NCBI RefSeq assembly: GCF_000058485.1
Contig: NC_008278.1
Coordinates: forward strand, 1,482,962-1,546,961
Reading direction: 5' to 3'
DNA length: 64,000 bases
Source of the DNA: Frankia alni ACN14a
GTDB lineage: Bacteria > Actinomycetota > Actinomycetes > Frankiales > Frankiaceae
The translations under genes were made by a program, and so were the position numbers. Under the pieces are notes generated by a model. That model was not told where the DNA came from, searched no databases, and worked only from the letters and a program-made list of their open reading frames with translations. Positions 7,690 through 63,878 of the stretch are shown one piece after another; the first letter of the stretch is position 1; every line of letters begins with the position of its first letter.

Positions 7690-7808
7690 CGAGTCGGGAC
7701 GATCTGGTTCCGGGGGGCGGCGCACACGATCTCAGGAGACGCTGCACCCGGCGATGCGACGCTGATGATGGTCAGCGCTGCTCAGACGTTTCGACAGTGG
7801 AGGTGACC

Positions 7809-47655: not shown

Positions 47656-48492
47656 ATGAGCACACGGTCCCGGCCTGCTTTCCGTGAGGGAGGGTTGACC
47701 GTCCTCACCAACCGGACCGCGCGAACGGGCACAGCCCCCGCCACCTGGCCGCCTCGAACGGCCGTCGTGACCGGCGCATCCAGTGGCATCGGGCGAGAAG
47801 CAGCCCTGCTGCTGGCCGCCGGCGGCTGTCGCTCGCTGCTGGTCGGCCGCAACGGTGCGGCGCTGGACGAGGTCGCTGCCGCCACGGAGGGTCACCGCAT
47901 CTCCGTCGACCTGTCGGCCGCCGGTTCGGAGGTGGCGGTCGCCTCCCGGGCCAGTGAGCTGCTCGGCGATGTCGACCTGCTGGTGTGCTCGGCGGGGCTC
48001 GGCGCCGCCGGCCCGTTCGACATGATGTCGCCGGAGGCGATCGCGGAACTCGTCGCGGTCAACGTCCTGTCGCCGATGGCGCTCGTCCGGGCCATGCTGC
48101 CGGCCATGCTGGATCGTGGGCAGGGGCGCATCCTGATCGTCGGCAGCATCGCCGGTGCGCTCGGCGTGCGCGGCGAGGTGGCCTACTCCGCGACGAAGGC
48201 GGCGATGGTCGGCTTCGCTGACGCACTGCGGGCCGAAGTCGCCGGACGCGGCATCACGGTGACGTTGTGTTTACCTGGCGTCGTCGACACCCCGTTCTTC
48301 CACCGCCGCGGTGCGCCGTACGTGCGGCGATGGCCGCGGCCGATCCCGGCCGCGCTGGTCGCCGAGCGCATGCTGGCGGCGGCGGGACGGGGTAGCGCGG
48401 AGGTCTGGGTCCCAGGGTGGCTGCTCGGCGCGGTGCGGGTCCACGGCGCGGTGCCGTCGCTGTACCGCAGGTTGGCGGGTGTCTTCGGATGA
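47656..48492 (+). CDS. SDR-family oxidoreductase next to hopanoid genes
   Basis: This 278-residue classical SDR has the cofactor loop VVTGASSGIGREAA, NVLSPMALVRAMLP and the catalytic YSATK, ending with a basic hydrophobic tail (WLLGAVRVHGAVPSLYRRL) that may touch the membrane. It is likely an NADP-dependent alcohol/ketone oxidoreductase. It precedes hpnC by 454 bp on the same strand and may belong to the hopanoid region, though its substrate is not known. The ATG at 47656 has a weak GGAAG site. Confidence 0.85.
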   Translation: MSTRSRPAFREGGLTVLTNRTARTGTAPATWPPRTAVVTGASSGIGREAALLLAAGGCRSLLVGRNGAALDEVAAATEGHRISVDLSAAGSEVAVASRASELLGDVDLLVCSAGLGAAGPFDMMSPEAIAELVAVNVLSPMALVRAMLPAMLDRGQGRILIVGSIAGALGVRGEVAYSATKAAMVGFADALRAEVAGRGITVTLCLPGVVDTPFFHRRGAPYVRRWPRPIPAALVAERMLAAAGRGSAEVWVPGWLLGAVRVHGAVPSLYRRLAGVFG

Positions 48493-48946
48493 TCCGGTAC
48501 CGGGGGCGTGCTGCCGGCTGGCCCGTGTCGCCCATTGGGGGTGAGTGACACCGACCACAGCTGCGGCGGCCTTCGGGCCGCCGGCGGCAGACGCGCAGGG
48601 TGGGGCCGAGGGCGCAGGGCGCCGTCGGCCCCGCGCCGCCGGAACCCGGGCGGCACCACGGCGCGCCTGCCAGGACCGGTCACCTGTGTCGGTCCGTCCG
48701 GACCTGCGCAGCAGGTCCCGCGTGAGGCGCGCCCATGACCTCCGGTGCGATCGGGCGCCCTGGTCCGTCGGCGGACCGGGTCGTCGCCAGCGCAGAACCC
48801 GCCGAACCTCGGCGCTGCCCAAGGCCGCGGCGCCGGCCAGGATCCGGCTCCGGCCAGGATCCCGGGCGCCGGCCGCGGCCTGGCGCAGGGACCCCCATCC
48901 CGGCACACCGCGCCCGGAGTGCAGACCGTCATCGAAGGAGAGGCGT
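48493..48946 (+). other. Upstream region of the hopanoid operon
   Basis: This 454-bp stretch has no supported gene. The hpnC frame stays open upstream, but the translated sequence is Arg/Pro-rich and unlike the family. CCGGCCAGGATCC occurs at 48833-48845 and again at 48850-48862. The operon promoter should lie here. Confidence 0.45.
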
Positions 48947-49945
48947 ATGACCGCCATCGACGCCCCAACCGGCCCACCACGCACGCCTGCGCTGTCGGGC
49001 GCGACGGGCCTGTCCACTCCCGCCGAACAGCTCCTGCGCGCCGCGCCGGCGGAGAACTTCCCGGTCTCGCCGATCGTGCTGCCCGCGGCCGTGCGCGCCC
49101 ACTTCAACGCCCTGTACGCCTTCAGCCGGTTCGTCGACAACCTCGGCGACGAGGCCGCGGGCGATCGGCTCGCCCTGCTCGACCGCGTCTCCGCGGATCT
49201 GTCGGTGATCTGGGCCGGCGGTGAGCCGGAACTCGGCGTCCTGCGCCTGCTCGCGCCCACCGTGCGCGCCTGCGACCTGCCCGCCGAGCCCTTCGAGCGG
49301 CTCGTCGAGGCCAACCGTCAGGACCAGCGGGTCACCCGCTACGACACGTTCGACGACCTGGTCCGCTACTGCACCCTGTCGGCCGATCCGATCGGACGGA
49401 TGGTGCTCGGCGTGTTCGGGCTCGCCACCCCCGACCGGGTCGTGCTCTCCGACAAGGTGTGCACCGCGCTGCAGCTCGCCGAGCACTGGCAGGACGTCGC
49501 CGAGGACCTCGCCGCCGGGCGCATCTACCTGCCGCGGGAGGACCTCGACACCTTCGGGGTCACCGAGGACGACCTGCGGGCGAAGGCGGCGAGCCCCGCG
49601 GTGCGCCACCTGATGGCCTTCGAGGTCAGCCGCGCCCGCACCGTGATGGACCAGGGCGCGCCGCTGGTCGCGACCGTGCCGGGCCGGCTGCGGCTGGCCC
49701 TGGCCGGCTTCGTCGGCGGCGGCCGGGCGGCGCTCGACGCGATCCGCCGCGCCGACTACGACGTGCTCGGCGGTCCACCCAAGGCACCCAAGCCGCGGAT
49801 GGCGCGCTTCGCACTGGTGGCGCTCGCGCAGTCGGCGGCCCCGGGAGCGCCGGCGGCGGCCCGCACCGCCGCGGCGGTGGCGACCGCGACCGGCACGGCC
49901 GGCGTCGCGGCCAAGCGCGAGCGCGCTGCGGGGGAGGGCCGATGA
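48947..49945 (+). CDS. hpnC: HpnC, hydroxysqualene synthase
   Basis: This 332-residue squalene/phytoene-synthase-fold protein begins its family region with PAENFPVSPIVLPAAVRAHF and has the two acidic motifs around RFVDNLGDE and HWQDVAEDL. HpnC turns presqualene diphosphate into hydroxysqualene. ATG at 48947 follows GAAGGAGAGG. The last 50 residues are an Ala/Thr-rich tail. It is the first gene of a tightly packed operon and overlaps hpnD by ATGA. Confidence 0.93.
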   Translation: MTAIDAPTGPPRTPALSGATGLSTPAEQLLRAAPAENFPVSPIVLPAAVRAHFNALYAFSRFVDNLGDEAAGDRLALLDRVSADLSVIWAGGEPELGVLRLLAPTVRACDLPAEPFERLVEANRQDQRVTRYDTFDDLVRYCTLSADPIGRMVLGVFGLATPDRVVLSDKVCTALQLAEHWQDVAEDLAAGRIYLPREDLDTFGVTEDDLRAKAASPAVRHLMAFEVSRARTVMDQGAPLVATVPGRLRLALAGFVGGGRAALDAIRRADYDVLGGPPKAPKPRMARFALVALAQSAAPGAPAAARTAAAVATATGTAGVAAKRERAAGEGR

Positions 49946-50853
49946 CCAGCCCGGTGCCGAACCCGACGAGCCGGCCCACCGTGGCCGAGGCCTACGCCGC
50001 CTGCGAGGCCCTCACGAAGGAGGCGGCGCGGAACTTCTCCTACGGCATCCGGCTGCTGCCCCCGGAGAAACGGGGGGCGCTCAGCGCCGTCTACGCGCTG
50101 GCCCGCCACCTGGACGACATCGGTGACGGGGATCTGCCGCCCGAGGAGAAGCTTGCCGGGCTCGCCCAGGTCCGAGCCGAGGTCAACAACCTGGGCGCGG
50201 GCAGCTCCGACCCGATGTACGTCGCCCTCGACGACGCCGCCCGGCGCTTCCCGATCCCGCTGGAGGCGTTCATCGAACTCGCCGACGGCGTCGAGAGTGA
50301 CGTGCACGGCACCACGTACGACACGTTCGACGACATGGTCGGCTACTGCCGGCTCGTCGCCGGCACGATCGGCCGGCTCTCGCTGGGCATCTTCGGCACC
50401 GAGCAGGCGGCCTCCGACCGCTCGGCGCCGGCCATCGCCGACGCCCTCGGCGTGGCCCTGCAGCAGACGAACATCCTTCGTGACGTCCGCGAGGACCTGC
50501 TCGGCGGGCGCATCTACCTGCCGGCGCAGGAGCTCAAGGCCGCCGGGATCGAGCTCGCCGTGGACGCCAGCGGTCGACTCGGCGGACCGCCGACGGCACT
50601 GCTGGGCTACCTGCGGTCCTCGGCGCAGCGGGCCGAGGAGTGGTACGACCGCGGCATGGTGCTGCTCGACCTGCTCGACCGGCGCAGCGCGGCCTGTTGC
50701 GGCGCGATGGCCGGCATCTACCTGCGGCTCAATCGGCGGATCAAGAACGAACCGGCCGCCGTGCTGGACCGTCGGCTGGCGCTGCCCGGGTGGCAGAAGG
50801 CGGTCGTCGCCGCCCGCAGCCTCGCCGGGCGACCGGAGACGAGCGCCGCATGA
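49942..50853 (+). CDS. hpnD: HpnD, presqualene diphosphate synthase
   Basis: This 303-residue enzyme joins two farnesyl diphosphates into presqualene diphosphate. It shows FSYGIRLLPPEKRGALSAVY, the first acidic motif ARHLDDIGD and the second QQTNILRDVREDLLGGRIYLP. The four-base ATGA overlaps at both ends (with hpnC and hpnE) indicate coupled translation of consecutive pathway enzymes. Confidence 0.94.
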   Translation: MTSPVPNPTSRPTVAEAYAACEALTKEAARNFSYGIRLLPPEKRGALSAVYALARHLDDIGDGDLPPEEKLAGLAQVRAEVNNLGAGSSDPMYVALDDAARRFPIPLEAFIELADGVESDVHGTTYDTFDDMVGYCRLVAGTIGRLSLGIFGTEQAASDRSAPAIADALGVALQQTNILRDVREDLLGGRIYLPAQELKAAGIELAVDASGRLGGPPTALLGYLRSSAQRAEEWYDRGMVLLDLLDRRSAACCGAMAGIYLRLNRRIKNEPAAVLDRRLALPGWQKAVVAARSLAGRPETSAA

Positions 50854-52628
50854 CCGCCGGGGTGAGTGAGGCCACCGAGGCCGCCGGCGCGACCGTGGCA
50901 GGTCGGGACGGGTCCCGACCGCACCTGGTCGTCGTCGGCGGAGGTCTCGCCGGGATGGCCGCGGCGCTGCTCGCCGTGGACAGCGGCGCGCGGGTGACGC
51001 TGCTGGAGGCCCGGCCGCGCCTGGGCGGCCAGACGACGTCGTTCCGACGGGGAGACCTGTGGATCGACACCGGTCAGCACGTGTTCATGCGCTGCTGCAC
51101 CGCCTACCGCGGACTGCTGGCGCGCCTCGGGGTGGAGCACCTGACCACCCTGCAGCCCCGCCTGGACGTCCCGGTGCTCCTCGGGGACTCGCTCACCCGG
51201 ACCCGACTGCGGCGCACCAGCGTGCGCCTGCCCGCGCCGCTGCACCTGGCCCCGGCGCTGCTGGGCTACCGGGCGCTGCCGCTCGCCGAGCGGCTGCGCG
51301 CCGGGCTCGCGGCCTTCCAGCTCGGTCGCCTCGACCAGCGGTCCGCGGCGGTGGACGAACGGTCGTTCGGCGCGTGGCTGGCCAGCCACGGCCAGGGCCC
51401 GGCGGCGACGAAGGCGCTGTGGGAGCTGCTGACCGTGGCGACGCTGAACGCGCCGGCCGCCGAGGCCTCGCTGGGCCTGGCGGCCAAGGTCGTGCGTACG
51501 GGCCTGCTGGACGGCGCCGACGCCGGCGACCTCGGCTGGGCGGAGGTCCCGCTGTCCCGGCTGCACGGCGACGCGGCGATGGCCGCCCTGACCGCGGCCG
51601 GCGCCGACGTCCACCTGGGGGCCAAGGTCCGCGCCATCACCGCCGCGGGCGGCGGCTGGGAGCTCGCGGTCACCGCGGGCGGGACCAGCCGCGGCGAGGC
51701 GGTGCCCGGCACCGACGCCGCGGGCCGGCTGCACGCCGACGCCGTGGTCCTCGCGGTGCCGCCACCGGCGGCGGCGGACCTGCTGCCGGCCGGGGCCGGC
51801 CCGCGACCCGAGCGGCTGCGTGAGCTGGGCGACTCGCCGATCATCAACGTGCACATGATCTATCCACGGCAGGTGATCGAGGGGCCGTTCCTGGCCGTCG
51901 TCGACTCGCCGATCCAGTGGATCTTCGACCGGACGATCTCCTCCGGCCTGGCCGCCTCGGGTCCGCCGGGAGCCCAGTACCTGGCGCTGTCCCAGTCGGC
52001 CGCCGAGCCGTGGATCGACCGGTCGGCGAACGAGCTGCGCACGTTGTTCGTCGACGAGATGGCCCGGCTGTTCCCGGCCGCCCGCGCGGCCGCGCCGATC
52101 GAGGTCTTCGTGACCCGGGAGCGCACGGCCACCTTCCGGCAGGCGCCCGGTTCGCTCGCGTTGCGCCCGGGTACCTCGACCGGACTGCCCGGCTTTGCCC
52201 TGGCCGGCACCTGGACCGACACCGGATGGCCCGCGACCATGGAATCTGCTGTGCGTAGCGGACTCGCTGCAACCCGTGAGAGCCTGGCCGGTATGGGGGT
52301 CGTCGTCAACGGGTTGGCCGGGTCCGCCGGGGGAGTCCGGGGGGCCGCCGGTCGACCACCGGCGCCGGCTCGGAGACTCCCACGGCAGGGCGCCGACGGG
52401 GCGCCCGCCACGAGCACCACACCTGCGTCAGACCCGTCAGAACCTACGTCAGTCCCATCAGACCCATCGCTTGTGCTGGATACAGCGGTTGCACCGAATG
52501 CATCGGATTCGTCGGATTCTCCGGATCCACGGGGGGAGAACGCGGTGACCGCCGCAACGAAGGCGGTCACCGGGCCGGTGCCCACCGGCCAGCCAGGGCA
52601 CTCATCCACAGGGGGATTCCCGGTATGA
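50850..52628 (+). CDS. hpnE: HpnE, hydroxysqualene dehydroxylase / FAD-dependent squalene oxidoreductase
   Basis: This 592-residue amine-oxidase-type flavoprotein has the dinucleotide motif VVVGGGLAGMAAALLAVDSG (about residues 29-48), the family LLEARPRLGGQTTSF and a C-terminal GFALAGTWTDTGWPATMESAVRSG FAD motif. It reduces hydroxysqualene to squalene. The family region ends near residue 485; about 105 further residues are low-complexity, with DPSEPTSVPSDPS-like repeats. It overlaps hpnD and the prenyl synthase gene by four bases each. Confidence 0.93.
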   Translation: MTAGVSEATEAAGATVAGRDGSRPHLVVVGGGLAGMAAALLAVDSGARVTLLEARPRLGGQTTSFRRGDLWIDTGQHVFMRCCTAYRGLLARLGVEHLTTLQPRLDVPVLLGDSLTRTRLRRTSVRLPAPLHLAPALLGYRALPLAERLRAGLAAFQLGRLDQRSAAVDERSFGAWLASHGQGPAATKALWELLTVATLNAPAAEASLGLAAKVVRTGLLDGADAGDLGWAEVPLSRLHGDAAMAALTAAGADVHLGAKVRAITAAGGGWELAVTAGGTSRGEAVPGTDAAGRLHADAVVLAVPPPAAADLLPAGAGPRPERLRELGDSPIINVHMIYPRQVIEGPFLAVVDSPIQWIFDRTISSGLAASGPPGAQYLALSQSAAEPWIDRSANELRTLFVDEMARLFPAARAAAPIEVFVTRERTATFRQAPGSLALRPGTSTGLPGFALAGTWTDTGWPATMESAVRSGLAATRESLAGMGVVVNGLAGSAGGVRGAAGRPPAPARRLPRQGADGAPATSTTPASDPSEPTSVPSDPSLVLDTAVAPNASDSSDSPDPRGENAVTAATKAVTGPVPTGQPGHSSTGGFPV

Positions 52629-53641
52629 CCATGACGGTTCCGGATGCGATCGAGCGGGGGCGGACCCTCACCGTGCCGGCGCTGCGCGCCGTGGTGGACC
52701 GCCTGCACCCGCGCCTTCGCCACGTCGTCGCCTACCACCGCGGCTGGGTGGACGCCGCCGGCGAACCGCTGCCCGGTGGCGGTGGCAAGCTCGTCCGCCC
52801 GGCGTTGGCGCTGCTGTCCGCCGAGGCGGCCGGCGCGCCGGCGGAGGTCGGCCTGCCGGCCGCGGTCGCCGTCGAGCTCGTGCACGACTTCTCGCTGCTG
52901 CACGACGACCTGATGGACGGCGACACCGAGCGCCGCCACCGGCCGACGGCCTGGACGGTCTTCGGCGCCGACGGCGCGATCCTGGCCGGCGACGCCCTGC
53001 TGGGGCTCGCCACCCAGGTCCTGCTGGAGGTCGAGGGCGACGCCGCGCGGCGCGCGGCGCTGATCCTCGGCGCCGGCGTCCAGGATCTGGTCCGCGGCCA
53101 GGCCGAGGACCTGATGTTCGAAAGCCGTTCCGACGTCACCGTGGCCGACACGCTGCGGATGGAGGACGGCAAGACCGGCGCGCTGCTGGCCTGTTCGGCG
53201 TCGCTGGGCGCCGTGCTCGCCGGTGCCGGCGACGAGATGGTCGACGCGCTCGCCGAGTACGGCTCCCGCCTCGGCACGGCCTTCCAGCTCATCGACGACC
53301 TGCTCGGCATCTGGGGCGACCCGGCGGTCACCGGCAAGCCGGTGCTGTCGGACCTGCGTTCCCGCAAGAAGTCCGTGCCGGTGGTGGTCGCGCTGGAGGC
53401 CGGCGGCGCCGCCGCCGAGGAGCTGCGTGCCTTCCTCGTCGGCACCGGCGAGTCGAGCGAGGCGGAACTCGCGCACATCGCCGAACTGGTCGAACAGGCG
53501 GGCGGGCGGGACTGGACCACCGCCGAGGCCGACCGGCAGCTCAAGGCGTGCGAGAACGTGCTGCGCTCGCTGTCGATGCCGGCCGCGGTCGAGGCGGAGC
53601 TGCTCGCCCTCGCCCGCTTCGTGACCGAGCGCGATCGCTGA
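52625..53641 (+). CDS. Polyprenyl (farnesyl-type) diphosphate synthase
   Basis: This 338-residue trans-isoprenyl diphosphate synthase has the first aspartate-rich motif in LLHDDLMDGD, the second in LIDDLLGIWGD, and GGGGKLVRPALALL. It makes the prenyl diphosphate, presumably farnesyl diphosphate, that HpnD joins. The residues just before the first motif set chain length, but length cannot be fixed from this reading. It is coupled to hpnE by an ATGA overlap. AGGAGG directly after its stop serves a small downstream ORF. Confidence 0.92.
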   Translation: MTMTVPDAIERGRTLTVPALRAVVDRLHPRLRHVVAYHRGWVDAAGEPLPGGGGKLVRPALALLSAEAAGAPAEVGLPAAVAVELVHDFSLLHDDLMDGDTERRHRPTAWTVFGADGAILAGDALLGLATQVLLEVEGDAARRAALILGAGVQDLVRGQAEDLMFESRSDVTVADTLRMEDGKTGALLACSASLGAVLAGAGDEMVDALAEYGSRLGTAFQLIDDLLGIWGDPAVTGKPVLSDLRSRKKSVPVVVALEAGGAAAEELRAFLVGTGESSEAELAHIAELVEQAGGRDWTTAEADRQLKACENVLRSLSMPAAVEAELLALARFVTERDR

Positions 53642-53652
53642 GGAGGCCGCAG

Positions 53653-53853
53653 GTGAGCACAGGCGCCCATGCCGCCTGGTCCACCCGCCGCCCCGAACCA
53701 GGCCGGGGTGATGCCGGGAGGCCGGGCGGCGCCCCGCCACGGCTCGACCGGCGGGCGGCCCCACCGGGCCGCCGCGACACCGGACAGACCGGCGATCAGC
53801 CTGGCGATCGCACGCTTGACCATCGCACGTACGACGAGGGGAGTCGTCGATGA
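53653..53853 (+). CDS. Small Arg/Pro/Gly-rich ORF coupled to shc
   Basis: This 66-residue frame begins at GTG 53653, six bases after a perfect AGGAGG (53641-53646), and ends with a TGA that overlaps the shc ATG by four bases. The product is very basic and rich in Arg, Pro, Gly and Asp, with no hydrophobic segment. The same ATGA coupling joins all other genes of this operon, so it may be a genuine small protein or a leader that carries ribosomes into shc. It could also be a chance frame in GC-rich DNA. Confidence 0.5.
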   Translation: MSTGAHAAWSTRRPEPGRGDAGRPGGAPPRLDRRAAPPGRRDTGQTGDQPGDRTLDHRTYDEGSRR

Positions 53854-55964
53854 GCCTGACCTCGGACCCGTCCCCGGCTGCTCCGACTGCCGAGAAGAGC
53901 CCGAAGCGGCCCACCATCCCGGTGCCCGCCACGGCCGACGCCTACGGGATCTCCCGGTCCTCACCGCCGCTGCCCGCCGCCACCGGCCGGCCGCAGGCGG
54001 CCGGCCCGGCCAGCGCGGGCGTCGCCACGGCGCGCGCCCGGGACCATCTCCTCGCGCTGCAGTCGGAGGAGGGCTGGTGGAAGGGCGACCTCGAGACGAA
54101 CGTCACGATGGACGCCGAGGACCTGTTCATGAAGCAGTTCCTCGGCATCCGCGGTGACGACGAGACCGAGCAGACCGCCCGCTGGATCCGTTCCCAGCAG
54201 CTCGCGGACGGCGGCTGGCCCACTTTCTACGGCGGCCCGGCCGACCTGTCCACCACCATCGAGGCCTACATCGCGCTGCGCCTCGCCGGCGACGCGGTCG
54301 ACGCCCCGCACATGGCCCGGGCCGCGGAGCTCGTGCGCGCCCAGGGCGGGGTGGCCGCCTCGCGGGTGTTCACCCGAATCTGGCTGGCGGCGCTCGGCCA
54401 GTGGTCCTGGGACGACGTGCCGGTCATCCCGCCGGAGTTGATCTTCCTGCCGTCGTGGATCCCGCTGAACGTCTACGACTTCGCCTGCTGGGCGCGCCAG
54501 ACGATCGTCGCGTTGACGATCGTCGGGTCACTGCGGCCGTCGCACGACCTCGGCTTCTCCATCGACGAGCTCAAGGTGCCGGCAGCGGCGCGCAAGCCGG
54601 CCGCGCTGCGCAGCTGGGAGGGCGCCTTCGAGCGGCTCGACAAGCTGCTGCACCGCTACGAGAAGCGGCCGATCAAGCTCCTGCGCACCCTGGCGCTGCG
54701 GCGGGCCACCGAGTGGGTCGTCGCCCGGCAGGAGGCCGACGGGTGCTGGGGCGGCATCCAGCCGCCCTGGGTCTACTCCGTCATGGCGCTGCACCTGATG
54801 GGGTACCCGCTGAACCACCCGGTGATCGCCACGGCGTTCCGCGGGATGGAGCGGTACGTGATCCGCCGGGACACCCCGCAGGGCCCGATCCGCCAGATCG
54901 AGGCCTGCCAGTCGCCGGTCTGGGACACCGCGCTCGCGGTCGTCGCGCTCGCCGACGCCGGCGTCCCCGGCGACCATCCGGCGATGGTGAAGGCCGGCCG
55001 CTGGCTGGTCGACGAGGAGGTCCGGGTCGCCGGGGACTGGGCGGTGCGCCGCCCCGAGCTCGCCCCCGGCGGCTGGGCGTTCGAGTTCGACAACGACTTC
55101 TACCCGGACGTCGACGACACCGCCGAGGTGGTGCTGGCGCTGCGGCGGTTGCTCGGCGCGGGGCACGTCGCCCCGCCGGCCTCCCGGCAGGGCCGCGCGG
55201 AGGCCCCCCCGGTGAACACCGTCGAGGACGCGGACCCGCGGCTGGCCGCGGCGATGCGCGCGGCGGCGGCCCGCGGGGTCGACTGGAGCGTCGGGATGCG
55301 CTCGTCGAACGGCGCCTGGGGCGCCTTCGACGCCGACAACGTCCGGACGCTCACCACGAAGATCCCGTTCTGCGACTTCGGCGAGGTGGTCGACCCGCCG
55401 TCGGCGGACGTCACCGCGCACATCGTCGAGATGCTGGCCGACCTCGGCCGCTCCGACCACCCGATCACCCAGCGGGCGGTGCAGTGGCTGCTGGACAACC
55501 AGGAGCCGGGCGGGTCCTGGTTCGGCCGGTGGGGCGTCAACCACCTCTACGGCACCGGGGCGGTCGTGCCGGCGCTGATCGGCGCCGGGGTGCCCACCGA
55601 CCACCCGGCGATCACCGCCGCGGTCCGGTGGCTGCTCGAGCACCAGTCGCCCGAGGGCGGCTGGGGCGAGGACCTGCGCTCCTACACCGACCCCGCCTGG
55701 ATCGGCCGAGGCGAGCTCACCGCGTCGCAGACGGCGTGGGCGCTGCTCGCGCTGCTGGCGGTGGACCCGCACAGCCTGGCCGTGAAGCGTGGGGTGCGCT
55801 GGTTGTGCGAGACCCAGCGGCCGGACGGCACCTGGGACGAGCCCTACTTCACCGGCACCGGTTTCCCCGGCGACTTCTCTCTGAACTACCATCTGTACCG
55901 GCTGGTCTTCCCGCTGACCGCGCTCGGCCGGTACGTGAGCCTCACCGGGGTGGCCACACCATGA
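53850..55964 (+). CDS. shc: Shc, squalene-hopene cyclase
   Basis: This 704-residue triterpene cyclase has the catalytic DVDDTAE motif at residues 420-426, several QW repeats (for example GGWPTFYGGPADLS, GCWGGIQPPWVYS, GGSWFGRWGVNHLYGT, GGWGEDLRSY, DGTWDEPYFTGTGFP) and the FYLNYH-like SLNYHLYRLVFPL end. It cyclises squalene to hopene at the membrane. The first 55 residues are polar and not part of the family. ATG at 53850 has a GAGGGGAG site. It is coupled to the small ORF and to the HpnG-IspH fusion. Confidence 0.96.
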   Translation: MSLTSDPSPAAPTAEKSPKRPTIPVPATADAYGISRSSPPLPAATGRPQAAGPASAGVATARARDHLLALQSEEGWWKGDLETNVTMDAEDLFMKQFLGIRGDDETEQTARWIRSQQLADGGWPTFYGGPADLSTTIEAYIALRLAGDAVDAPHMARAAELVRAQGGVAASRVFTRIWLAALGQWSWDDVPVIPPELIFLPSWIPLNVYDFACWARQTIVALTIVGSLRPSHDLGFSIDELKVPAAARKPAALRSWEGAFERLDKLLHRYEKRPIKLLRTLALRRATEWVVARQEADGCWGGIQPPWVYSVMALHLMGYPLNHPVIATAFRGMERYVIRRDTPQGPIRQIEACQSPVWDTALAVVALADAGVPGDHPAMVKAGRWLVDEEVRVAGDWAVRRPELAPGGWAFEFDNDFYPDVDDTAEVVLALRRLLGAGHVAPPASRQGRAEAPPVNTVEDADPRLAAAMRAAAARGVDWSVGMRSSNGAWGAFDADNVRTLTTKIPFCDFGEVVDPPSADVTAHIVEMLADLGRSDHPITQRAVQWLLDNQEPGGSWFGRWGVNHLYGTGAVVPALIGAGVPTDHPAITAAVRWLLEHQSPEGGWGEDLRSYTDPAWIGRGELTASQTAWALLALLAVDPHSLAVKRGVRWLCETQRPDGTWDEPYFTGTGFPGDFSLNYHLYRLVFPLTALGRYVSLTGVATP

Positions 55965-57943
55965 GCACCTCCCCATCCCCGGGCGGCGACGGGACCGCTC
56001 CCGACGCTGTCGTGACCCCCGCCGACCGCACGGCCCCGGCGGCCGCGGCGGGGGGACCCGCCGTGATCCCCTCCCAGGACCCGGCGTCGCCGTCCGTTCC
56101 CTCGTCCGCCGCGGCACGCCGGCTCAGCGCGGTGGGTTCGCCTGTCGCGGTGGGTTCGTCCAGCGCGGTCGGTTCGCCTGTCGAGGCGGGTTCGCCTGTC
56201 GACGCGGGTTCGCCCGCCGAGGCGGGTTCGCCGGTCGAGCCGGGCTCGTCCACCGAGGCGGGCTCGGCCGCGGAGGCGTCGGTCGGTGGCGGGCAGGCGC
56301 AGGCGCCACCGCGGCCCGCGGAGCCGGCTGCGACCGTGGCCCGGCCCCGCCGACGCGCGCGGCTCGTGGTCGCGACAGCGCTGCGCTTCGAGGCGATGGC
56401 GGCCGGCCGCTCCGGCCTGCCGTCGGACACCGTCATGGTGCGCACCGGTATGGGCCCCGACAAGGCGGGCCGAGCCGCTCGGGTGGTCCGTCAGGCGCGC
56501 CCCGACGCCGTCGCCATCGTGGGCCTGTCCGGCGGCCTCGCCCCCGGGATCAGGCCCGGGGACATCGTCGTCGCCAGCGAGGTCCGCGGCGTCGACGGTT
56601 CCGTCGCCGCCCGCTGTGCGTCCGCCCCGCTGCTGGCCGGTGACCTGCGCAGGCTCGGCCTGACCGTCCACGTCGGCCCGATCGTCACCGCGGCCAAGGT
56701 CGCCACCGGCGACGAGCGCACGCGGCTGGCCGCCACCGGCGCCATCGCGGTGGACATGGAGAGCGCCCCGATCGCCGCGGGGGTCGGGGATGTCCCGTTC
56801 GCCGCGGTGCGGGTCATCGTCGACACCGCCGACGAGCCGCTCGGCCGCCTCGACCTGGTCCGCCGCGGCGTGCTGGGCCTGCGCACGATGCGCCGGCTCG
56901 GCCTGCCCATCGGCGCCTGGGCGGCGGCGGTGGGCCGGCGCACCGTGCTGCTCGCCGAACCGCGGGCGTTCTGCGCCGGGGTCGAGCGCGCCATCGAGGT
57001 CGTCGAACGCGCCCTGGAGCTCCACGGCGCGCCGGTCTACGTCCGCAAGCAGATCGTGCACAACTCCCACGTGGTGGCCGACCTCGCCGCCCGAGGGGCG
57101 GTCTTCGTCGAGGAACTCGACGAGGTGCCCGCCGGCGCGACCGTGGTCTTCTCCGCGCACGGGGTGGCCCCGGCGGTGTGGAACCAGGCCGACGGGCGCC
57201 AGCTCTCCGTCATCGACGCGACCTGCCCGCTGGTCGAGAAGGTGCACGCCGAGGCCCGCCGGTTCACCTCCCGCGGCGACACCGTGCTGCTCATCGGCCA
57301 CTCCGGTCACGAGGAGGTCGACGGCACGCTGGGCGAGGCGCCTGGGCGCATCCGGCTGGTGCAGTCGCCCGAGGAGGTCGACGCCCTCGACGTCCCCGAC
57401 CCCGAGCGGGTCACCTACCTCATGCAGACCACGCTGGCGATGGACGAGGCCGAGGAGGTCGTCGACGCGCTCAAGGAGCGCTTCCCGGCGATCGTCGGCC
57501 CCGGGTCCGCCGACATCTGCTACGCCACCTCGAACCGGCAGAACGCGGTGCGCAAGGTCGCCCAGGAGGCGCAGCTCGTCCTCGTCGTCGGGTCGGCCAA
57601 CAGCGCGAACTCGGTGCGGCTGGTGGAGGTCAGCCGCCGCGACGGGGTGGCCTCCCACCTCGTCGAGAACGTCGGCGACGTGGAACTGTCCTGGCTGGAC
57701 GGGGTGGAGACGGTCGGCATCTCCGCCGGCGCCTCGGCTCCGCCGTCACTGGTGGAGGAGCTCACCGCCGCGCTGTCCGGCCTCGGGGCGACGGACGTGA
57801 CCACCCGATCCGTCGGTACCGAGACGGTCGCCTTCCACCTGCCCAAGGAGCTGCGCCGCGCGGGCGCCATCGCGGCCGGTGCCGCCGCGGCTGGTACCTC
57901 CGCGGCTGGTGCCGCGCCGGCGCACGTGTCCGGCCCGTCGTAG
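55961..57943 (+). CDS. ispH: HpnG-IspH fusion: hopanoid nucleosidase plus HMBPP reductase
   Basis: This 660-residue protein joins two enzymes. Residues about 1-130 are a repeat-rich linker (GSPVEAG-type). Residues about 130-320 match HpnG, the purine-nucleosidase/phosphorylase-fold enzyme that removes adenine from adenosylhopane (VGLSGGLAPGIRPGDIVVAS, DMESAPIAAG). Residues about 325-640 are IspH/LytB, which makes IPP and DMAPP, with iron-sulfur cysteines in FCAGVERA, DATCPLVEKVH and DICYATSNRQ. I see no frameshift or stop between them. ATG at 55961 overlaps shc by four bases. Confidence 0.93.
   Translation: MSTSPSPGGDGTAPDAVVTPADRTAPAAAAGGPAVIPSQDPASPSVPSSAAARRLSAVGSPVAVGSSSAVGSPVEAGSPVDAGSPAEAGSPVEPGSSTEAGSAAEASVGGGQAQAPPRPAEPAATVARPRRRARLVVATALRFEAMAAGRSGLPSDTVMVRTGMGPDKAGRAARVVRQARPDAVAIVGLSGGLAPGIRPGDIVVASEVRGVDGSVAARCASAPLLAGDLRRLGLTVHVGPIVTAAKVATGDERTRLAATGAIAVDMESAPIAAGVGDVPFAAVRVIVDTADEPLGRLDLVRRGVLGLRTMRRLGLPIGAWAAAVGRRTVLLAEPRAFCAGVERAIEVVERALELHGAPVYVRKQIVHNSHVVADLAARGAVFVEELDEVPAGATVVFSAHGVAPAVWNQADGRQLSVIDATCPLVEKVHAEARRFTSRGDTVLLIGHSGHEEVDGTLGEAPGRIRLVQSPEEVDALDVPDPERVTYLMQTTLAMDEAEEVVDALKERFPAIVGPGSADICYATSNRQNAVRKVAQEAQLVLVVGSANSANSVRLVEVSRRDGVASHLVENVGDVELSWLDGVETVGISAGASAPPSLVEELTAALSGLGATDVTTRSVGTETVAFHLPKELRRAGAIAAGAAAAGTSAAGAAPAHVSGPS
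56130..56275 (+). repeat. Imperfect 18-bp repeats in the N-terminus of the fusion gene
   Basis: GGTTCGCCTGTCGAGGCG-type units recur about eight times and encode GSPVEA-like hexapeptides ahead of the HpnG domain. The copies are diverged but in frame. Confidence 0.75.
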
Positions 57944-57982
57944 CCCGACTCGCGGTCCCGACCGCCGGTCGCCCGACCGTTC

Positions 57983-58011
57983 GGCGGGGATCGCCGTGCG
58001 CGATCCCCGCC
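57983..58011 (+). terminator. 12-bp stem terminator after the hopanoid operon
   Basis: GGCGGGGATCGC at 57983-57994 pairs perfectly with GCGATCCCCGCC at 58000-58011 across a five-base loop. It lies 40 bases after the fusion-gene stop and 26 bases before the thioesterase ATG, so it probably separates the two transcripts. Confidence 0.72.
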
Positions 58012-58037
58012 ACGGCCTCGTCTCTAGGCTGCTGACC

Positions 58038-58586
58038 ATGACCGCGATGGAATCCGCACCCGGCGTTCCCGAGCTCGACCCCGCGCTCTGGGGCGAGCCC
58101 CGCAGCAAGTCCGTCACCTGGCACGACCCGATCCCGGTCGCGTCGGCCGCGGCCACCCTGAGCGGCCTGGAGTTCCTGACCGCGATGCGCGACGGCCGGA
58201 TCCCGCCGCCGCCCATCTCCCGGCTGTTCGACTTCCGGCCGGTCGAGGTCTCGCGCGGCGACGTGGTGTTCACCTGTCAGCCCGACGAGTCGGCGTACAA
58301 CCCGATCGGGATGGTCCACGGCGGCCTGCTCTGCACGATCCTCGACACCGCGGCCGCCTGTGCGGTGCAGACCACCCTCGACGCCGGCGTCGCCTACACC
58401 TCGATCGAGATCAAGGTGAACTACCTGCGGCCGGTGCGCATCGCGGCGGGCCGGCCCCAGCGGCTGACGGCGCACGGCTGGACCACCAGGCCGGGGCGCC
58501 GGGTGGCCTTCGCCGAGGCGGACGTCCGCGACGACGACGGCAAGGTCGTCGCCACGGCCAGCAGCAGCTGCCTGATCCTCGACTGA
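58038..58586 (+). CDS. PaaI-type hotdog-fold thioesterase
   Basis: This 182-residue protein has the family segment NPIGMVHGGLLCTILDTAAA followed by a long beta region (YTSIEIKVNYLRPVRIAAG). Such enzymes hydrolyse acyl-CoA or aryl-CoA thioesters. The start is ATG at 58038; there is no strong ribosome site. It lies between the hopanoid operon and hpnH on the same strand. A link to hopanoid metabolism is not shown. Confidence 0.85.
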   Translation: MTAMESAPGVPELDPALWGEPRSKSVTWHDPIPVASAAATLSGLEFLTAMRDGRIPPPPISRLFDFRPVEVSRGDVVFTCQPDESAYNPIGMVHGGLLCTILDTAAACAVQTTLDAGVAYTSIEIKVNYLRPVRIAAGRPQRLTAHGWTTRPGRRVAFAEADVRDDDGKVVATASSSCLILD

Positions 58587-58969
58587 GACCGGCTCCGGTC
58601 GCCGGGAACCCCAGGACGTGTAACTCTGAGTAATGAGTCGGCGTCGTTGCCGGCATCGGCGTCGCCCGGCCAGCGGAACCCGCGGGCCGGCGCGCCGGAG
58701 GTCGTCCCCACACCTCCGACGCCTCGTCGAAGGTTGACGATGCGAGGCCGGCGGAGGCCGCAATCGGCGTCCTTTGGCCGTCGCGCGAGGCCCTGACCTG
58801 GCCGGATACCCTCCGCGACCGGTTGCTCGGACGAGCGGGTCGGCCACCGGACACAGCTGTGCGACAGTTCATCGCTCGATCCACATGCAGCCTGTACGTA
58901 CAGGCTGTATGGTCAGTGCAGAGATCATCGGTCATCCCACCGGCGACCTGAGGAGAGGGGAGCTACGCC
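58587..58969 (+). other. Intergenic region upstream of hpnH
   Basis: This 383-bp region has no supported gene. Its right part holds a perfect 20-bp palindrome and a TATGGT -10-like sequence at 58908-58913, followed by the GGAGAGGGGAG ribosome site of hpnH. Confidence 0.5.
58888..58907 (+). promoter_or_regulatory. Perfect 20-bp palindrome in the hpnH promoter
   Basis: CAGCCTGTACGTACAGGCTG is a perfect palindrome. It sits directly before a TATGGT -10-like element, so a bound protein would cover the -35/spacer region of hpnH. Size and symmetry suit a TetR-type repressor; the TetR gene at 60180-60854 is one candidate. Confidence 0.7.
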
Positions 58970-59974
58970 GTGGCGGTCGAGTGGCGGTACCAGCTCCGTA
59001 TCGGTACCTACCTGGCGAAGCAGAAACTGCGGCGCCGCAAGCACTTCCCGCTCGTGCTGGAGCTGGAGCCACTGTTTGCCTGCAACCTGTCGTGCACGGG
59101 CTGTGGGAAGATCCAGCATCCGGCGTCCGTCCTGAAGCAGCGGATGAGCCCCGAGGACGCGCTCGCCGCGGTCAAGGAGTGTGGCGCTCCGGTCGTGGCG
59201 ATCGCGGGCGGTGAGCCGCTCATGCACCCGCAGATCCACGAGATCGTGAACGAGCTGGTCAAGCGCAAGAAGTTCGTGATCCTGTGCACGAACGGCCTGC
59301 TGCTGCAGAAGAAGCTCAAGAACTTCACGCCGTCGCCCTACTTCACCTTCGTGCTGCACATCGACGGGCTGCGCGAGCGGCACGACTCGGTGGTGGAGAA
59401 GGAGGGCACGTTCGACGAGTGCGTGCGGGCCTTCCACGCGGCGAAGGCGGCCGGCTTCCGGGTCGGCACCAACTCCACGTTCTTCAACAACGACAGCCCG
59501 CAGGACGTCATCGACATCCTGACCTTCCTCAACGACGACCTCAAGGTCGACCAGATCCAGCTCTCGCCGGGTTACGCGTACGAGAAGGCTCCGGACCAGG
59601 AGCACTTCCTCGCCGTCCAGGAGACCCGCGAGATGTTCGGGAAGGTCTTCGCGGAGGGTCGCCGCAAGAAGTTCCGGCTCAACCACTCGCCCATCTTCCT
59701 GGACTTCCTCGAGGGGAAGAAGGAGCTCGACTGCACCGCCTGGGGCATCCCGAGCTACTCGCTGTTCGGCTGGCAGAAGCCCTGCTACCTGATGAGCGAC
59801 GGGTACGTCTCCTCGTACAAGGAGCTCGTCGAGACCACCGACTGGGACTCCTACGGTCGCGGCAAGGACCCTCGGTGCGCGAACTGCATGGCGCACTGCG
59901 GCTACGAGACCTCGGCCGTGCTGGCGACGATGGGTTCCCTGAAGGAGTCCATTCGCGCCGTCCGCCAGGTCTGA
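58970..59974 (+). CDS. hpnH: HpnH, radical SAM adenosylhopane synthase
   Basis: This 334-residue radical SAM enzyme has the iron-sulfur motif ACNLSCTGC (Cys38, Cys42, Cys45), the GGEP motif in AIAGGEPLMHP and a C-terminal CANCMAHCGYE cysteine cluster. It adds the adenosyl group to hopene to start the extended C35 side chain. The GTG start at 58970 follows GGAGAGGGGAG. Its base composition is a little lower in GC than the shc operon. It has its own palindrome-bearing promoter, so extended hopanoids may be controlled separately. Confidence 0.95.
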   Translation: MAVEWRYQLRIGTYLAKQKLRRRKHFPLVLELEPLFACNLSCTGCGKIQHPASVLKQRMSPEDALAAVKECGAPVVAIAGGEPLMHPQIHEIVNELVKRKKFVILCTNGLLLQKKLKNFTPSPYFTFVLHIDGLRERHDSVVEKEGTFDECVRAFHAAKAAGFRVGTNSTFFNNDSPQDVIDILTFLNDDLKVDQIQLSPGYAYEKAPDQEHFLAVQETREMFGKVFAEGRRKKFRLNHSPIFLDFLEGKKELDCTAWGIPSYSLFGWQKPCYLMSDGYVSSYKELVETTDWDSYGRGKDPRCANCMAHCGYETSAVLATMGSLKESIRAVRQV

Positions 59975-60000
59975 CAGTCTGACGATCTGACGGTCCGACC

Positions 60001-60083
60001 CGGCGGCGGCCCTCCCGCCGCCGTTCGGCCGGCTTCACCCCGAACGCCGTCCCGACCGCTCGCCGCGGCCGGGGCGGCGTTCG
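60001..60083. terminator. Terminator hairpins between converging hpnH and tetR
   Basis: CGGCGGCGG at 60001-60009 pairs with CCGCCGCCG at 60015-60023. A second, longer element joins CGAACGCCG at 60041-60049 to CGGCGTTCG at 60075-60083. Together they can stop transcription from both sides. Confidence 0.65.
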
Positions 60084-60179
60084 TCGTTCTCGGGCCCGAT
60101 GCCTACCTCGCCCTTCCAGAGGGTTCCCCGTCCGTTTGGTCCCTCCGGAAAGGCAGGCCTGGCGAGCAGATCGGTGTGG

Positions 60180-60854
60180 CTAGTGGGCGTGGCGGGGTCC
60201 GGCGGCGCTGTCGACGCTGACCGGCGGCTGCTCGGCGAGGTCGCCGCCCCGGCCCAGCCCACGCAGCAGCCGGTCGAGCACGATGCCGATCTCGATGCGG
60301 GCGGTGTCCGGATCGGCCGCGCCCGCCGTGTAGATGCTCGCCTCCGACAGCAGGGCGGCGACCAGCCTGGTCAGCGGGCCGACGGGGAGCGGATCGATGC
60401 GCTCCTCGGCCATCGCCCGTTCCAGCCATTCGGACAGCAGCCGGTAGCCGTGCCGCTCGACGAGGGCGTCCCACGCCTGGTTGCCGAGGACGGCGGGACC
60501 GTCGATCAGCACGATGCGCTGGAAGTCGCTGTCCGCGGTGGAGATGTCGAGCAGGGACTGGAACCCCTGGCGCAGCTGCGTCCAGGCGTCGCTGGGCAGC
60601 TCGGCGTCGCGCGCGAGCTCGCCCGCGACGAGCTGCTCGGCCACCTCGGTGGCGACCTGCTCCATCACGGTGCGGAACAGTTCGGCCTTGTCGCGGAAGT
60701 GGTGGTACAACGCGCCGCGGGTGACCTGGGCGTCGGCGACGATCTCCTCGGTTCCCGTGGCGGCGAAGCCCTGCTCGGCGAACCGGCGGCGGGCTGCCGA
60801 GATCAGGGCCTGACGGGTGTCAGCCGTCTGCTCGGTACGACGGCTTCTGGTCAC
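60180..60854 (-). CDS. TetR-family regulator in the hopanoid region
   Basis: This 224-residue protein has the TetR helix-turn-helix (FAEQGFAATGTEEIVADAQVTRGALYHHFRDK, residues about 21-52) and a ligand domain of usual size. I chose GTG at 60854, which lies six bases after a -10-like CATAAT with no separate Shine-Dalgarno site, so the transcript may be leaderless. It converges on hpnH and is divergent from hpnB. It may regulate hpnB, hpnH or itself; there is no direct evidence. Confidence 0.88.
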   Translation of the reverse strand: MTRSRRTEQTADTRQALISAARRRFAEQGFAATGTEEIVADAQVTRGALYHHFRDKAELFRTVMEQVATEVAEQLVAGELARDAELPSDAWTQLRQGFQSLLDISTADSDFQRIVLIDGPAVLGNQAWDALVERHGYRLLSEWLERAMAEERIDPLPVGPLTRLVAALLSEASIYTAGAADPDTARIEIGIVLDRLLRGLGRGGDLAEQPPVSVDSAAGPRHAH

Positions 60855-61242
60855 CCCCTGATTATGGTGCAGTCGGCGCCTTCGGAGGTGGCTCTGCCGA
60901 GCCAGGATCGTCCGGAGCGCCCGAGGCCCCGTTCGGCGGGGGTACACACAGGACGATGTGATGGCACCGCGGAATTAACCCCGGTCGTCCCGGGCGGCGC
61001 GGGGTGGGAGCACCCGGATGGTCGACGGGCCGGGCCCGACTGCGTCCGCAGGGCACCGGGTGCTCCATGGCGGATGGGCATCGTTCCTGCTCAGCGGCTC
61101 TTTTCCGGGGTGCGTCCGGGGGCCGGCACCGGCGGCGGGGCCGTCGCGATCGCGGCGGACCTGCCGGGGGCGGAAAGTTCTTAACACACAATTACCGCGC
61201 TCGTCCGACGTCCGTACGACGCACGTGGCAGCATCACTCTCT
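60855..61242. other. Divergent intergenic region tetR/hpnB
   Basis: This 388-bp region holds the tetR promoter at its left end (CATAAT on the minus strand at 60861-60866). The hpnB frame is open through it, but the translation is unlike the family. I see no perfect palindrome matching that of hpnH. Confidence 0.45.
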
Positions 61243-62799
61243 GTGACTGTGCTGCAGTGGATAGCCCTCGCCTCCTTGCTCGCCTGGTTGTATCTGGCCG
61301 TCGGTCATGGTTTCTTCTGGCGCACCGACCAACGGCTCCCCGCGCGGCAGGCGCCGCCGTCGTGGCCCAGCGTAGCGATCATCATCCCGGCGCGGGACGA
61401 GGCCGACGTGCTGCCCGTGACCCTCCCGACCCTGCTCGCCCAGGACTATCCCGGTCCGGTCCGCCTGATCCTCGTCGACGACGGCTCCACCGACGGGACC
61501 ACGGAGGTCGCCCGAGCCCTCGCGGAGCAGGCCGCGCGTAACGGGCACACGGGCGTCACCGCCGCGGTCACCGCCTCCACGGAGCCCCCACCCGGGTGGA
61601 CCGGCAAGCTGTGGGCCCTGCGCCGCGGCGTCGACTGCGCCGGCGACGCCGAGTTCCTGCTGCTCACCGACGCCGACATCGCCCACGACCCGGGCTCGCT
61701 GACCAGCCTGGTGGCCTCCGCGCGCACGCATGGGCTGGACATGGTTTCGCAGATGGCCGTGCTGCGGGCCGAGACCGTCTGGGAACGGGTCATCGTGCCG
61801 GCGTTCGTCTACTTCTTCGCGATGCTGTATCCGTTCCGCTGGTCGAACCGCCCGCGTTCGCGGGTGGCGGCCGCCGCCGGGGGTTGTTCGCTGGTCCGCC
61901 GGGAGGCCCTCCTGGCGGCCGGTGGGCTCGCCGAGGTCCGCGGGGCGGTCATCGACGACGTCGCGATCGCCCGGATCATCAAGCGCTCCGGCGGACGGAC
62001 CTGGCTGGGGCTCGCCGAGCAGGTCCACAGTCGGCGCCCGTACCCGCGGCTGGCGGACCTGTGGAAGATGGTGTCCCGCAGCGCCTACGCCCAGCTTCGG
62101 CACTCGCCGCTGCTGCTGCTCGGCACCGTGCTCGGGATGTCGCTCGTCTTCGTCGTCCCCGTGGTCGCCACCATCGCGGGCCTCGCGGCCGGCGACGGCA
62201 CGACCGCGATCCTCGGCGCCGTCGCCTGGGTGATCATGACCTTGTCGTACGTGCCGATGATCCGGTACTACCGCCAGCCGGTTCCCGCCGCCCTGCTGCT
62301 GCCCGGCGTCGCCGTGCTCTACCTCGGGATGACGCTGGACTCGGCGCGGCTCAAGTGGGCCGGCCGCGGCGCCGCCTGGAAGGGCCGCACCTACGACGAT
62401 CACGGGACACCGTCGGCCGAGCGGCACTCGTCGGCCGCGACGACGCCGGCCACGGCGCCTTCCGTCCCGGCGCCTTCCGAGTCGGTGCCGTCCGAGTCGG
62501 TGCCTTCCGCCGTCGCCCAGCCCACCGCTACGGTGGCCCCGTCCGAGGCGAGTCCGGCCGGGGCCGGTCCGGTGGCCGCCGCGGCATCCGCCGGCCCAGG
62601 GGTGGTGACGATCCCGGCGGCTGCCGGCCCGGTCGAGCCGCCGCATGACCCGTGGAACGACGGCTTCTCCCGCCCCAGCCCCAGGCCCGGGCGGACCGAC
62701 GCGCCGCGCCGCGAGGACGCCGCACGCGCAGTGCCCGCGTCCGGCCGGGCTCAGTCCCAAGCCCGGGCGGACGACCGTCAGCCCGGCGCCGGACGCTGA
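61243..62799 (+). CDS. hpnB: HpnB, hopanoid-associated glycosyltransferase (GT2)
   Basis: This 518-residue protein has an N-terminal membrane span, a GT2 domain (SVAIIIPARDEADVLPVTLP, LILVDDGSTDGT, LLTDADIAHDPGS, VIDDVAIARIIKRSGGRTWLG) and three C-terminal spans around residues 280-365. It matches the hopene-associated HpnB family, proposed to add a sugar to the hopanoid side chain. The family region ends near residue 385; about 130 residues of Pro/Ser/Ala-rich tail follow. GTG 61243 or GTG 61249 could be the start; neither has a ribosome site. Confidence 0.88.
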   Translation: MTVLQWIALASLLAWLYLAVGHGFFWRTDQRLPARQAPPSWPSVAIIIPARDEADVLPVTLPTLLAQDYPGPVRLILVDDGSTDGTTEVARALAEQAARNGHTGVTAAVTASTEPPPGWTGKLWALRRGVDCAGDAEFLLLTDADIAHDPGSLTSLVASARTHGLDMVSQMAVLRAETVWERVIVPAFVYFFAMLYPFRWSNRPRSRVAAAAGGCSLVRREALLAAGGLAEVRGAVIDDVAIARIIKRSGGRTWLGLAEQVHSRRPYPRLADLWKMVSRSAYAQLRHSPLLLLGTVLGMSLVFVVPVVATIAGLAAGDGTTAILGAVAWVIMTLSYVPMIRYYRQPVPAALLLPGVAVLYLGMTLDSARLKWAGRGAAWKGRTYDDHGTPSAERHSSAATTPATAPSVPAPSESVPSESVPSAVAQPTATVAPSEASPAGAGPVAAAASAGPGVVTIPAAAGPVEPPHDPWNDGFSRPSPRPGRTDAPRREDAARAVPASGRAQSQARADDRQPGAGR

Positions 62800-62808
62800 C
62801 CCAGCCCT

Positions 62809-62828
62809 GCGCCGGAGGCCGACGGCGC
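62809..62828. terminator. Small hairpin between converging hpnB and ureD
   Basis: GCGCCG at 62809-62814 pairs with CGGCGC at 62823-62828 in the 30-bp gap between the two converging genes. It is short but well placed. Confidence 0.4.
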
Positions 62829-62829
62829 C

Positions 62830-63726
62830 TCATCCCGTGGGGTCGGCCAGTGCTGTCAGCCGGCGGCGCAGGGTGACGGCATCGTCGGCCAACGCCGACA
62901 CCAGGTAGCCCGGACCGGTCAGGGGCAGCCGGGCCACCCCCTCGGCAACGGCGGCGTCGGGTCCGGCCCCGGCCCATGCGGGGGCCACGACGAGCAGCGA
63001 GCCGACCGCGCGGGCACCGCCCAACTGGGCCGGACCCCGCAGCCCGGGCACCTGTGGCCCGAGCAGCAGCTCCTGGCGCAGCAGGGGCACCCATCCGAAC
63101 GGCCCACCCGCCAGGTCGGCACCTGGACCCTCGGCACCGCCCGCCACATCGACGCGCAGCGTGCTGAGGATGGACCCGCCGGGCTCGCCGAACCGTCCGA
63201 GCAGGATCTCCTCACGCAGCCGCAGCCGAGCCGTCGCGGCCAACCGGACATCCGTGCTGATCTGGTGATCGGCCCCGTCGGCAACCACGGTCGGTTCCGG
63301 ACCGAGGTCGAGTTCACCGCCGTCCGCGACCTCCGCAGTGACGGTCAGCCGGGACGGTCCGGGGCCGCGACCTGGCAGCGCGACGGTCGCGGCCACCGAG
63401 CGCAGGACCAGGCGCACCCCGCCCCCGACGGAGATGTCCAGCCGCAGGTCGTCGCCGGCCAGCGGACCAGCGGCCCCGTTGACCAGGTGGACCGTCATCG
63501 TCGGCAGCGGCCCCGGGTCCGCGCGTGCCCCGGCGCCCGCGCGCGCCCCGGTCCGAACGGGTGACACGCCGGTCATGCGCAGGACGATCGGCACGTCCGA
63601 GCGCAGCTCGGCGAGTCGGGGAGCGCCCTGCGGTCCCCGCTCCACCCGCACCGAGGCGTGCGCCCGGACAGCCGTACGGCCCGTCCGGGGCCTGGCTGGC
63701 GACGCGGCGTCGGTGGTCGTGGGCAT
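62830..63726 (-). CDS. ureD: UreD, urease accessory protein
   Basis: This 298-residue protein matches UreD/UreH: GAAGPLAGDDLRLDISVGGG, LRLREEILLGRFGEPGGS and VPLLRQELLLGPQ. UreD forms a complex with UreF and UreG that inserts nickel into urease. ATG at 63726 follows GAGGAG; the frame stays open upstream without similarity. It is read right to left, so the other urease genes are expected outside the right edge of the window. Confidence 0.9.
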   Translation of the reverse strand: MPTTTDAASPARPRTGRTAVRAHASVRVERGPQGAPRLAELRSDVPIVLRMTGVSPVRTGARAGAGARADPGPLPTMTVHLVNGAAGPLAGDDLRLDISVGGGVRLVLRSVAATVALPGRGPGPSRLTVTAEVADGGELDLGPEPTVVADGADHQISTDVRLAATARLRLREEILLGRFGEPGGSILSTLRVDVAGGAEGPGADLAGGPFGWVPLLRQELLLGPQVPGLRGPAQLGGARAVGSLLVVAPAWAGAGPDAAVAEGVARLPLTGPGYLVSALADDAVTLRRRLTALADPTG

Positions 63727-63878
63727 CGGGTGCAGCTCCTCGCGGCCAGGTGCCGGCCGGGCGACGGGTGTCCCGGCCAGGCGGGGCCGCGGGGCCGGGT
63801 CAGTGTGATCGGTCTGTGTGATCGGGTTTGTGGGAGCGGGGTAGCGGAGCGGGGGCGGGGGCGGGGGAGTGCCCGCGA

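Follow-up and report, generated by a model that had tools for sequence, protein, structure and literature searches.

A single gene in the hopanoid cluster of Frankia alni ACN14a joins an HpnG-type nucleosidase to IspH, the last enzyme of the methylerythritol phosphate (MEP) isoprenoid pathway, and we consider it likely that its product is a bifunctional fusion serving as the cell's HpnG and as the hopanoid cluster's own second IspH. The gene was examined in a window of 64,000 nucleotides (the whole stretch analysed; contig NC_008278.1, positions 1,482,962 to 1,546,961 of the forward strand), and coordinates are positions in this window unless another sequence is named. It forms a single open frame of 660 amino acids (aa) at 55961-57943 on the plus strand, with no internal stop. 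The start codon, ATG at 55961, overlaps the stop of the squalene-hopene cyclase gene shc (ATGA; shc ends at 55964), and the stop codon is TAG at 57941-57943. The DNA is GC-rich and many long frames are open at the locus, so an open frame alone is weak evidence. A chance frame was nevertheless rejected, and so was a hidden frameshift, which an earlier sequence-only reading of this DNA had named as something that would refute it; both rejections rest on the domain matches and on the recurrence of an identical one-frame architecture in 46 class genomes and 54 named loci.

Fold and catalytic residues of the two domains

The uninterrupted joining of an HpnG-type enzyme to IspH, as first proposed from the letters, held when the protein was compared with curated families and modelled. 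Pfam places PNP_UDP_1 at aa 158-294 with 53.1 bits (cut-off 25.1) and LYTB (PF02401) at aa 329-605 with 301 bits (cut-off 24.5), and the NCBIfam IspH model TIGR00216 covers the same aa 329-605 with 299.8 bits (cut-off 187.85). An AlphaFold model of aa 129-660, built with 34 relatives, has a mean predicted local distance difference test score (pLDDT) of 91.1 and a predicted template modelling score (pTM) of 0.87. Its residues 324-633 superpose on E. coli IspH over 310 of 318 residues (1.8 Å, Z 39.9), and residues 131-323 superpose on 5'-methylthioadenosine/S-adenosylhomocysteine (MTA/SAH) nucleosidase (MTAN; 1z5n) over 191 residues (2.2 Å, Z 23.7). Since each superposes on a whole solved enzyme, the model indicates that neither partner is a fragment and that both domains are complete. 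The join is nearly linker-free, with the last HpnG helix (model residues 186-195) followed by the first IspH strand (199-205), and the model is confident across the junction.

Residues at the active sites point the same way. All three iron-sulfur cluster cysteines are present, as the sequence-only reading had stated; C338, C422 and C520 correspond to C12, C96 and C197 of E. coli IspH. E126 of the E. coli enzyme is kept as E452, and H41, H74, H124, T167, S225, N227 and S269 (E. coli numbering), which we take to be ligands of 4-hydroxy-3-methylbut-2-enyl diphosphate (HMBPP), are all kept as well. None of these catalytic and HMBPP positions varies, either among 13 aligned fusions or among 35. With curated scores, cluster cysteines, E126 and HMBPP ligands all in place, the C-terminal domain is a member of the IspH/LytB family. 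The N-terminal domain, which scores above the family cut-off and has the whole fold, belongs to the phosphorylase/nucleosidase superfamily (PF01048, MTAN fold). There MTAN E12, E174 and D197, presumably the catalytic positions, are matched by E144, E267 and D288; all 14 aligned HpnG domains keep the counterparts of E12, M173, E174 and D197, and those of E12 and E174 are invariant in the 35 aligned fusions. The HpnG part lies in a hopanoid cluster together with shc and hpnH, and the fusion is the genome's best HpnG match (87.9 bits, against 40.2 for the next).

A second IspH in the genome

The sequence-only reading had asked whether the fused copy is the cell's only IspH and proposed a genome search as the check. 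It is not the only one. A standalone ispH lies at C1:6674031-6674864, within an open frame of 352 codons. The fused domain is 58% identical to this standalone copy and 51% identical to E. coli IspH. A recent duplication of the Frankia ispH was rejected as the origin of the fused copy, given the 58% identity and the position of the fused IspH apart from standalone rows in a tree. Each of 13 Frankia genomes examined has one fused and one standalone IspH, with the fused gene reaching a contig end in three of them. Another IspH sequence was likewise found in 50 of 50 fusion-bearing genomes checked across the class and phylum scans (13 + 33 + 4), the second copy being split in one and partial in another of the four phylum-scan genomes. 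A second IspH together with a best-matching HpnG suggests that the cell could do without the IspH part more readily than without the HpnG part.

Distribution and history of the fusion

A survey of how widely the fusion occurs, also suggested at the outset, used a profile of the Frankia fusion, and its class and phylum counts rest on the best-scoring matches listed. Of 393 genomes drawn from the class, 46 have the fusion, in every case verified to be a single frame, and 15 of the 46 come from seven families other than that of Frankia. Within Frankia's own family 31 of 35 genomes carry it; no fusion was found in three of the others (G189, G255 and G362; completeness 94, 87 and 63%), and in the fourth, G308, it is split over two frames. 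At the G308 locus (L243), hpnE and the prenyl synthase gene are each split over two frames too, suggesting sequence of poor quality.

Of 80 named HpnG loci from several actinobacterial classes, 54 are fused and 26 unfused; as they are the best 80 of 424 relatives of a fused query, this share should not be read as a prevalence. The fusion occurs, among others, in Amycolatopsis, Pseudonocardia, Nocardia, Micromonospora, Actinomadura and Actinopolymorpha, as well as in metagenome-assembled genomes (MAGs) under the labels Thermoleophilia and Acidimicrobiaceae and in a contig under the label Melainabacteria. The surroundings recur along with the fusion. Downstream hpnH was found in all 15 fused loci outside Frankia's family and in every one of the 54 named fused loci, at a distance of no more than 60 bases in 45 of the latter. 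The nearest recognised upstream gene in the 54 is shc in 46 and hpnE in 4, with none in the available stretch in 4. The MEP gene dxs occurs in 7 of the 54 fused loci and in 5 of the 26 unfused ones, many loci being incomplete, and its presence fits recruitment of supply genes into hopanoid clusters. An intermediate stage with hpnG and ispH as separate neighbours was rejected, as none of the 26 unfused loci has an IspH in the available stretch.

The history of the fusion was approached with two trees, in neither of which gain and loss can be separated in the counts of changes. A quick tree of 59 IspH domains (hand-chosen from 125 rows collected; 23 of 56 inner branches open) puts the standalone copies on one side of a branch with support 91 and needs two changes for the fused state. 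A careful tree of 64 HpnG domains needs seven changes between fused and unfused; its rows were taken from 104 by removing 40 near-copies or repeated genomes by hand, two weak or short matches having been skipped earlier. The simplest reading, which the trees fit and do not prove, would be one old fusion that was inherited or passed across actinobacteria, with the IspH part lost several times since, as in Streptomyces and part of the Streptosporangiaceae. In the 26 unfused HpnG proteins the recognised domain ends near where IspH would begin.

The unfused HpnG of Saccharopolyspora elongata (L163) has a short C-terminal tail that resembles the final residues of fused IspH, perhaps the remnant of a deletion. 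Five genomes (f17; L084-L088) have a second, unfused, high-scoring IspH beside a prenyl diphosphate synthase and without HpnG, and no hopanoid gene was recognised in the 9 to 14 kb available around it. This IspH falls outside the standalone rows, and the tree leaves it between having departed from the fusion and having preceded it. A Thermoleophilia MAG carries, besides the fusion, a separate IspH roughly 1 kb downstream of hpnH (L155, 9605-10552). HpnO may go with unfused HpnG: where 2.5 kb or more is available beyond hpnH, it is present in 12 of 21 unfused loci versus 2 of 42 fused ones, a link carried mostly by Streptomyces.

The hopanoid cluster around the fusion

Features of the locus are collected in Table 1. 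The sequence-only reading had made the fusion the last gene of its operon, a detail that the surroundings do not support: thioesterase, hpnH and hpnB genes follow on the same strand, no terminator-like site was seen on the fusion's strand within 57600-59200, and the cluster bounds given in the accessible text of PMC8951365, FRAAL1427-1435, run past FRAAL1433. We infer that the fusion is FRAAL1433 from the placement of FRAAL1429 (hpnD) and FRAAL1431 (fppS) in the accessible text of PMC8951365 and from the product name of FRAAL1433 in that of PMC10252897. The former source also describes proteins of the cluster as overabundant in nodules. The assignment to strain ACN14a agrees with a coordinate match: in this genome, a single contig of 7,497,934 bases, a frame recognised by eye as NifH-type has its low end at C1:7420646, which is where Table 1 of PMC10252897 places nifH (FRAAL6813) of Frankia alni ACN14a. 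No Rfam match was found in 46000-64000.

Table 1. Features of the hpnG-ispH locus (window coordinates).
Feature	Position	Strand	Remarks
hpnC, hpnD, hpnE and polyprenyl (farnesyl) diphosphate synthase	48545..53641	+	upstream; family matches
shc, squalene-hopene cyclase	53850..55964	+	overlaps fusion start by 4 bp
hpnG-ispH fusion gene	55961..57943	+	660 aa; FRAAL1433 by gene order and product name
N-terminal low-complexity extension, ~130 aa	55961..56350	+	short motif IPxQ(D/E)xxSPSxP kept in genus
18-bp tandem repeat, 7.4 copies	56134..56266	+	within N-terminal extension
HpnG-type nucleosidase domain, aa 131-323	56351..56929	+	E144, M266, E267, D288 match MTAN catalytic positions
IspH domain, aa 324-633	56930..57859	+	C338, C422, C520, H367, H400, H450, E452, T490, S548, N550, S592
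C-terminal low-complexity tail	57860..57940	+	low model confidence
4HBT thioesterase	58038..58586	+	between fusion and hpnH; start codon chosen by eye
hpnH, adenosyl-hopene transferase	58970..59974	+	
hpnB, hopene-associated glycosyltransferase	61018..62799	+	

The N-terminal extension is of low complexity apart from the motif IPxQDxxSPSxP, which is kept with small changes in 10 loci of the genus and was not seen in four loci from other genera of the family. Its tandem repeat encodes a Gly-Ser-Pro-Val-Glu-Ala-like repeat and looks strain-specific, as sister Frankia have other low-complexity sequence there. Between hpnH and hpnB a 361-aa frame at 60099-61184 is also there in other Frankia loci (L135, L136, L150); it gave no Pfam or NCBIfam match. 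A second HpnH-like radical S-adenosylmethionine gene scores 518.6 bits to TIGR03470 at 6329-7735 of another locus (L248; G000:C1:3634000-3648000), and none of the other hopanoid genes searched for was found around it within 14 kb.

Evidence against a bifunctional role and alternative explanations

Several observations weigh against a bifunctional HpnG-IspH enzyme. The curated HpnG model TIGR03468 matches aa 134-295 with 84.5 bits, under its cut-off of 187.1. As all five unfused actinobacterial and myxococcal HpnG proteins tested fall under this cut-off as well (73 to 102 bits), we call the nucleosidase domain HpnG-like on account of its context and fold and leave it outside TIGR03468. Residue conservation is incomplete: S226 of E. 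coli IspH is Ala in the Frankia fusion, and in the 35 aligned fusions the counterpart of D197 (D288) falls just short of invariance and that of M173 stays below 90%. In the phylum draw only 5 of 396 genomes, F. alni included, have the fusion (F. alni, G664 and G446 confirmed as one frame, G637 and G559 by match alone), a minority of actinobacteria, and the 26 named loci in which HpnG lacks an IspH part mean that the link is not essential. Finally, the accessible text of PMC10252897 reports FRAAL1433 at a 5.12-fold higher level in propionate-fed than in fumarate-fed nitrogen-fixing cells, among the 40 most overabundant proteins, a figure that does not tell peptides of one domain from those of the other. 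Detection by proteomics does mean, as far as that text goes, that a product is made.

The gene could be one frame from which IspH is also made separately, by cleavage or from an internal start (GTG at 56945, at the junction), so that the fusion would have no role of its own. At the junction, 49 of 99 fused genes have a GTG codon; the valine codons there comprise 49 GTG and 25 GTC, as against 1804 GTG and 2288 GTC over the IspH parts as a whole, and the domain of unfused HpnG proteins ends at about the same place. However, the other 50 of the 99 genes have no ATG, GTG or TTG at the junction, through which the model stays confident, and 98 of the 99 keep a Trp nine codons upstream of it. The fused genes also share ancestry, so that the GTG excess is not independent evidence, and we regard separate production as unlikely. 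That one domain is inactive and kept only for stability or regulation seems to us very improbable. The redundancy of IspH in all fusion-bearing genomes checked and the fit of the trees to repeated loss of the IspH part would agree with it, but invariant IspH catalytic residues in 35 fusions, and HpnG ones that show no variation in 14 and are largely constant in 35, would be unexpected for a dead domain.

The IspH domain might, alternatively, have left HMBPP chemistry and reduce a hopanoid intermediate, for example in the conversion of ribosylhopane to bacteriohopanetetrol, the step after HpnG. A reductase domain is, after all, joined to HpnG, and another IspH in the cell would free the fused copy to change. 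Were it true, the IspH part would be the missing side-chain reductase, explaining both its joining to HpnG and its retention across many actinobacteria; the accessible part of PMC12583986 states that the enzyme for this conversion is not established. Against this, the fused domain keeps the HMBPP-binding and catalytic positions, and HpnG persists without it in the unfused loci. IspH chemistry is the removal of an allylic hydroxyl and not the reduction of a carbonyl, which counts further against the proposal, and we give it hardly any weight.

Discussion

Cumulatively, these results favour a bifunctional fusion of HpnG and IspH. The sequence-only reading had proposed that the gene ties precursor supply to hopanoid tailoring in one polypeptide; complete domains, kept catalytic residues and a recurrent cluster architecture bear this out at the level of the gene, and from them we infer two activities on a single polypeptide in the cell and a role in supply. 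The N-terminal domain is predicted to act as the cell's HpnG, removing adenine from HpnH-made adenosylhopane to give ribosylhopane. The C-terminal domain would act as the IspH of the hopanoid cluster, converting HMBPP to isopentenyl diphosphate (IPP) and dimethylallyl diphosphate (DMAPP) and thereby raising precursor supply when the cluster is switched on. IspH at IPP and DMAPP and HpnG at the side chain, after cyclisation, would thus act at two ends of one pathway. We propose no substrate channel, since one step does not directly follow the other. The most likely effect of the fusion is that both enzymes are expressed together and in equal dose, and IspH may also be brought close to the hopanoid machinery.

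Both partners are ordinary enzymes. The IspH domain shares with E. coli IspH/LytB (3urk, 9ql0) the whole fold, cluster cysteines and HMBPP-binding residues, and differs from it in sitting behind HpnG, in its place in the tree apart from standalone copies and in the Ala at S226. The nucleosidase domain has the complete fold and catalytic positions of HpnG and MTA/SAH nucleosidase and the cluster position near hpnH; unlike HpnG, the fusion has a C-terminal IspH and, in Frankia, the N-terminal extension, and it scores below the curated cut-off in the way the five unfused HpnG do. Natural fusions of IspH have a precedent in the IspH-ribosomal protein S1 family (NF000907), an NCBIfam model with a ribosomal protein as the partner. 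The NCBIfam families listed for our fusion and for the five unfused HpnG proteins include no HpnG-IspH family, and no description of such a fusion was found in the searched open-licence PMC literature. IspDF also fuses enzymes of non-consecutive steps, according to the accessible text of PMC13001223; both IspDF partners are MEP enzymes, whereas one partner here acts late in hopanoid tailoring. What we describe is therefore not a new kind of system; it is a real and complete gene made of ordinary partners, probably old, widely scattered and bifunctional.

The gene should interest specialists in hopanoids and in the MEP pathway. A plain annotation as 'IspH' masks the genome's best HpnG candidate. 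The accessible text of PMC13001223 calls IspH an oxygen-sensitive bottleneck, and that of PMC12501873 describes Frankia hopanoids as forming the vesicle envelope that keeps oxygen from nitrogenase; an IspH tied to hopanoid synthesis is therefore a testable way for envelope building and precursor supply to rise together. More broadly, our findings suggest that an old gene fusion incorporated part of isoprenoid supply into hopanoid synthesis in several classes of actinobacteria.

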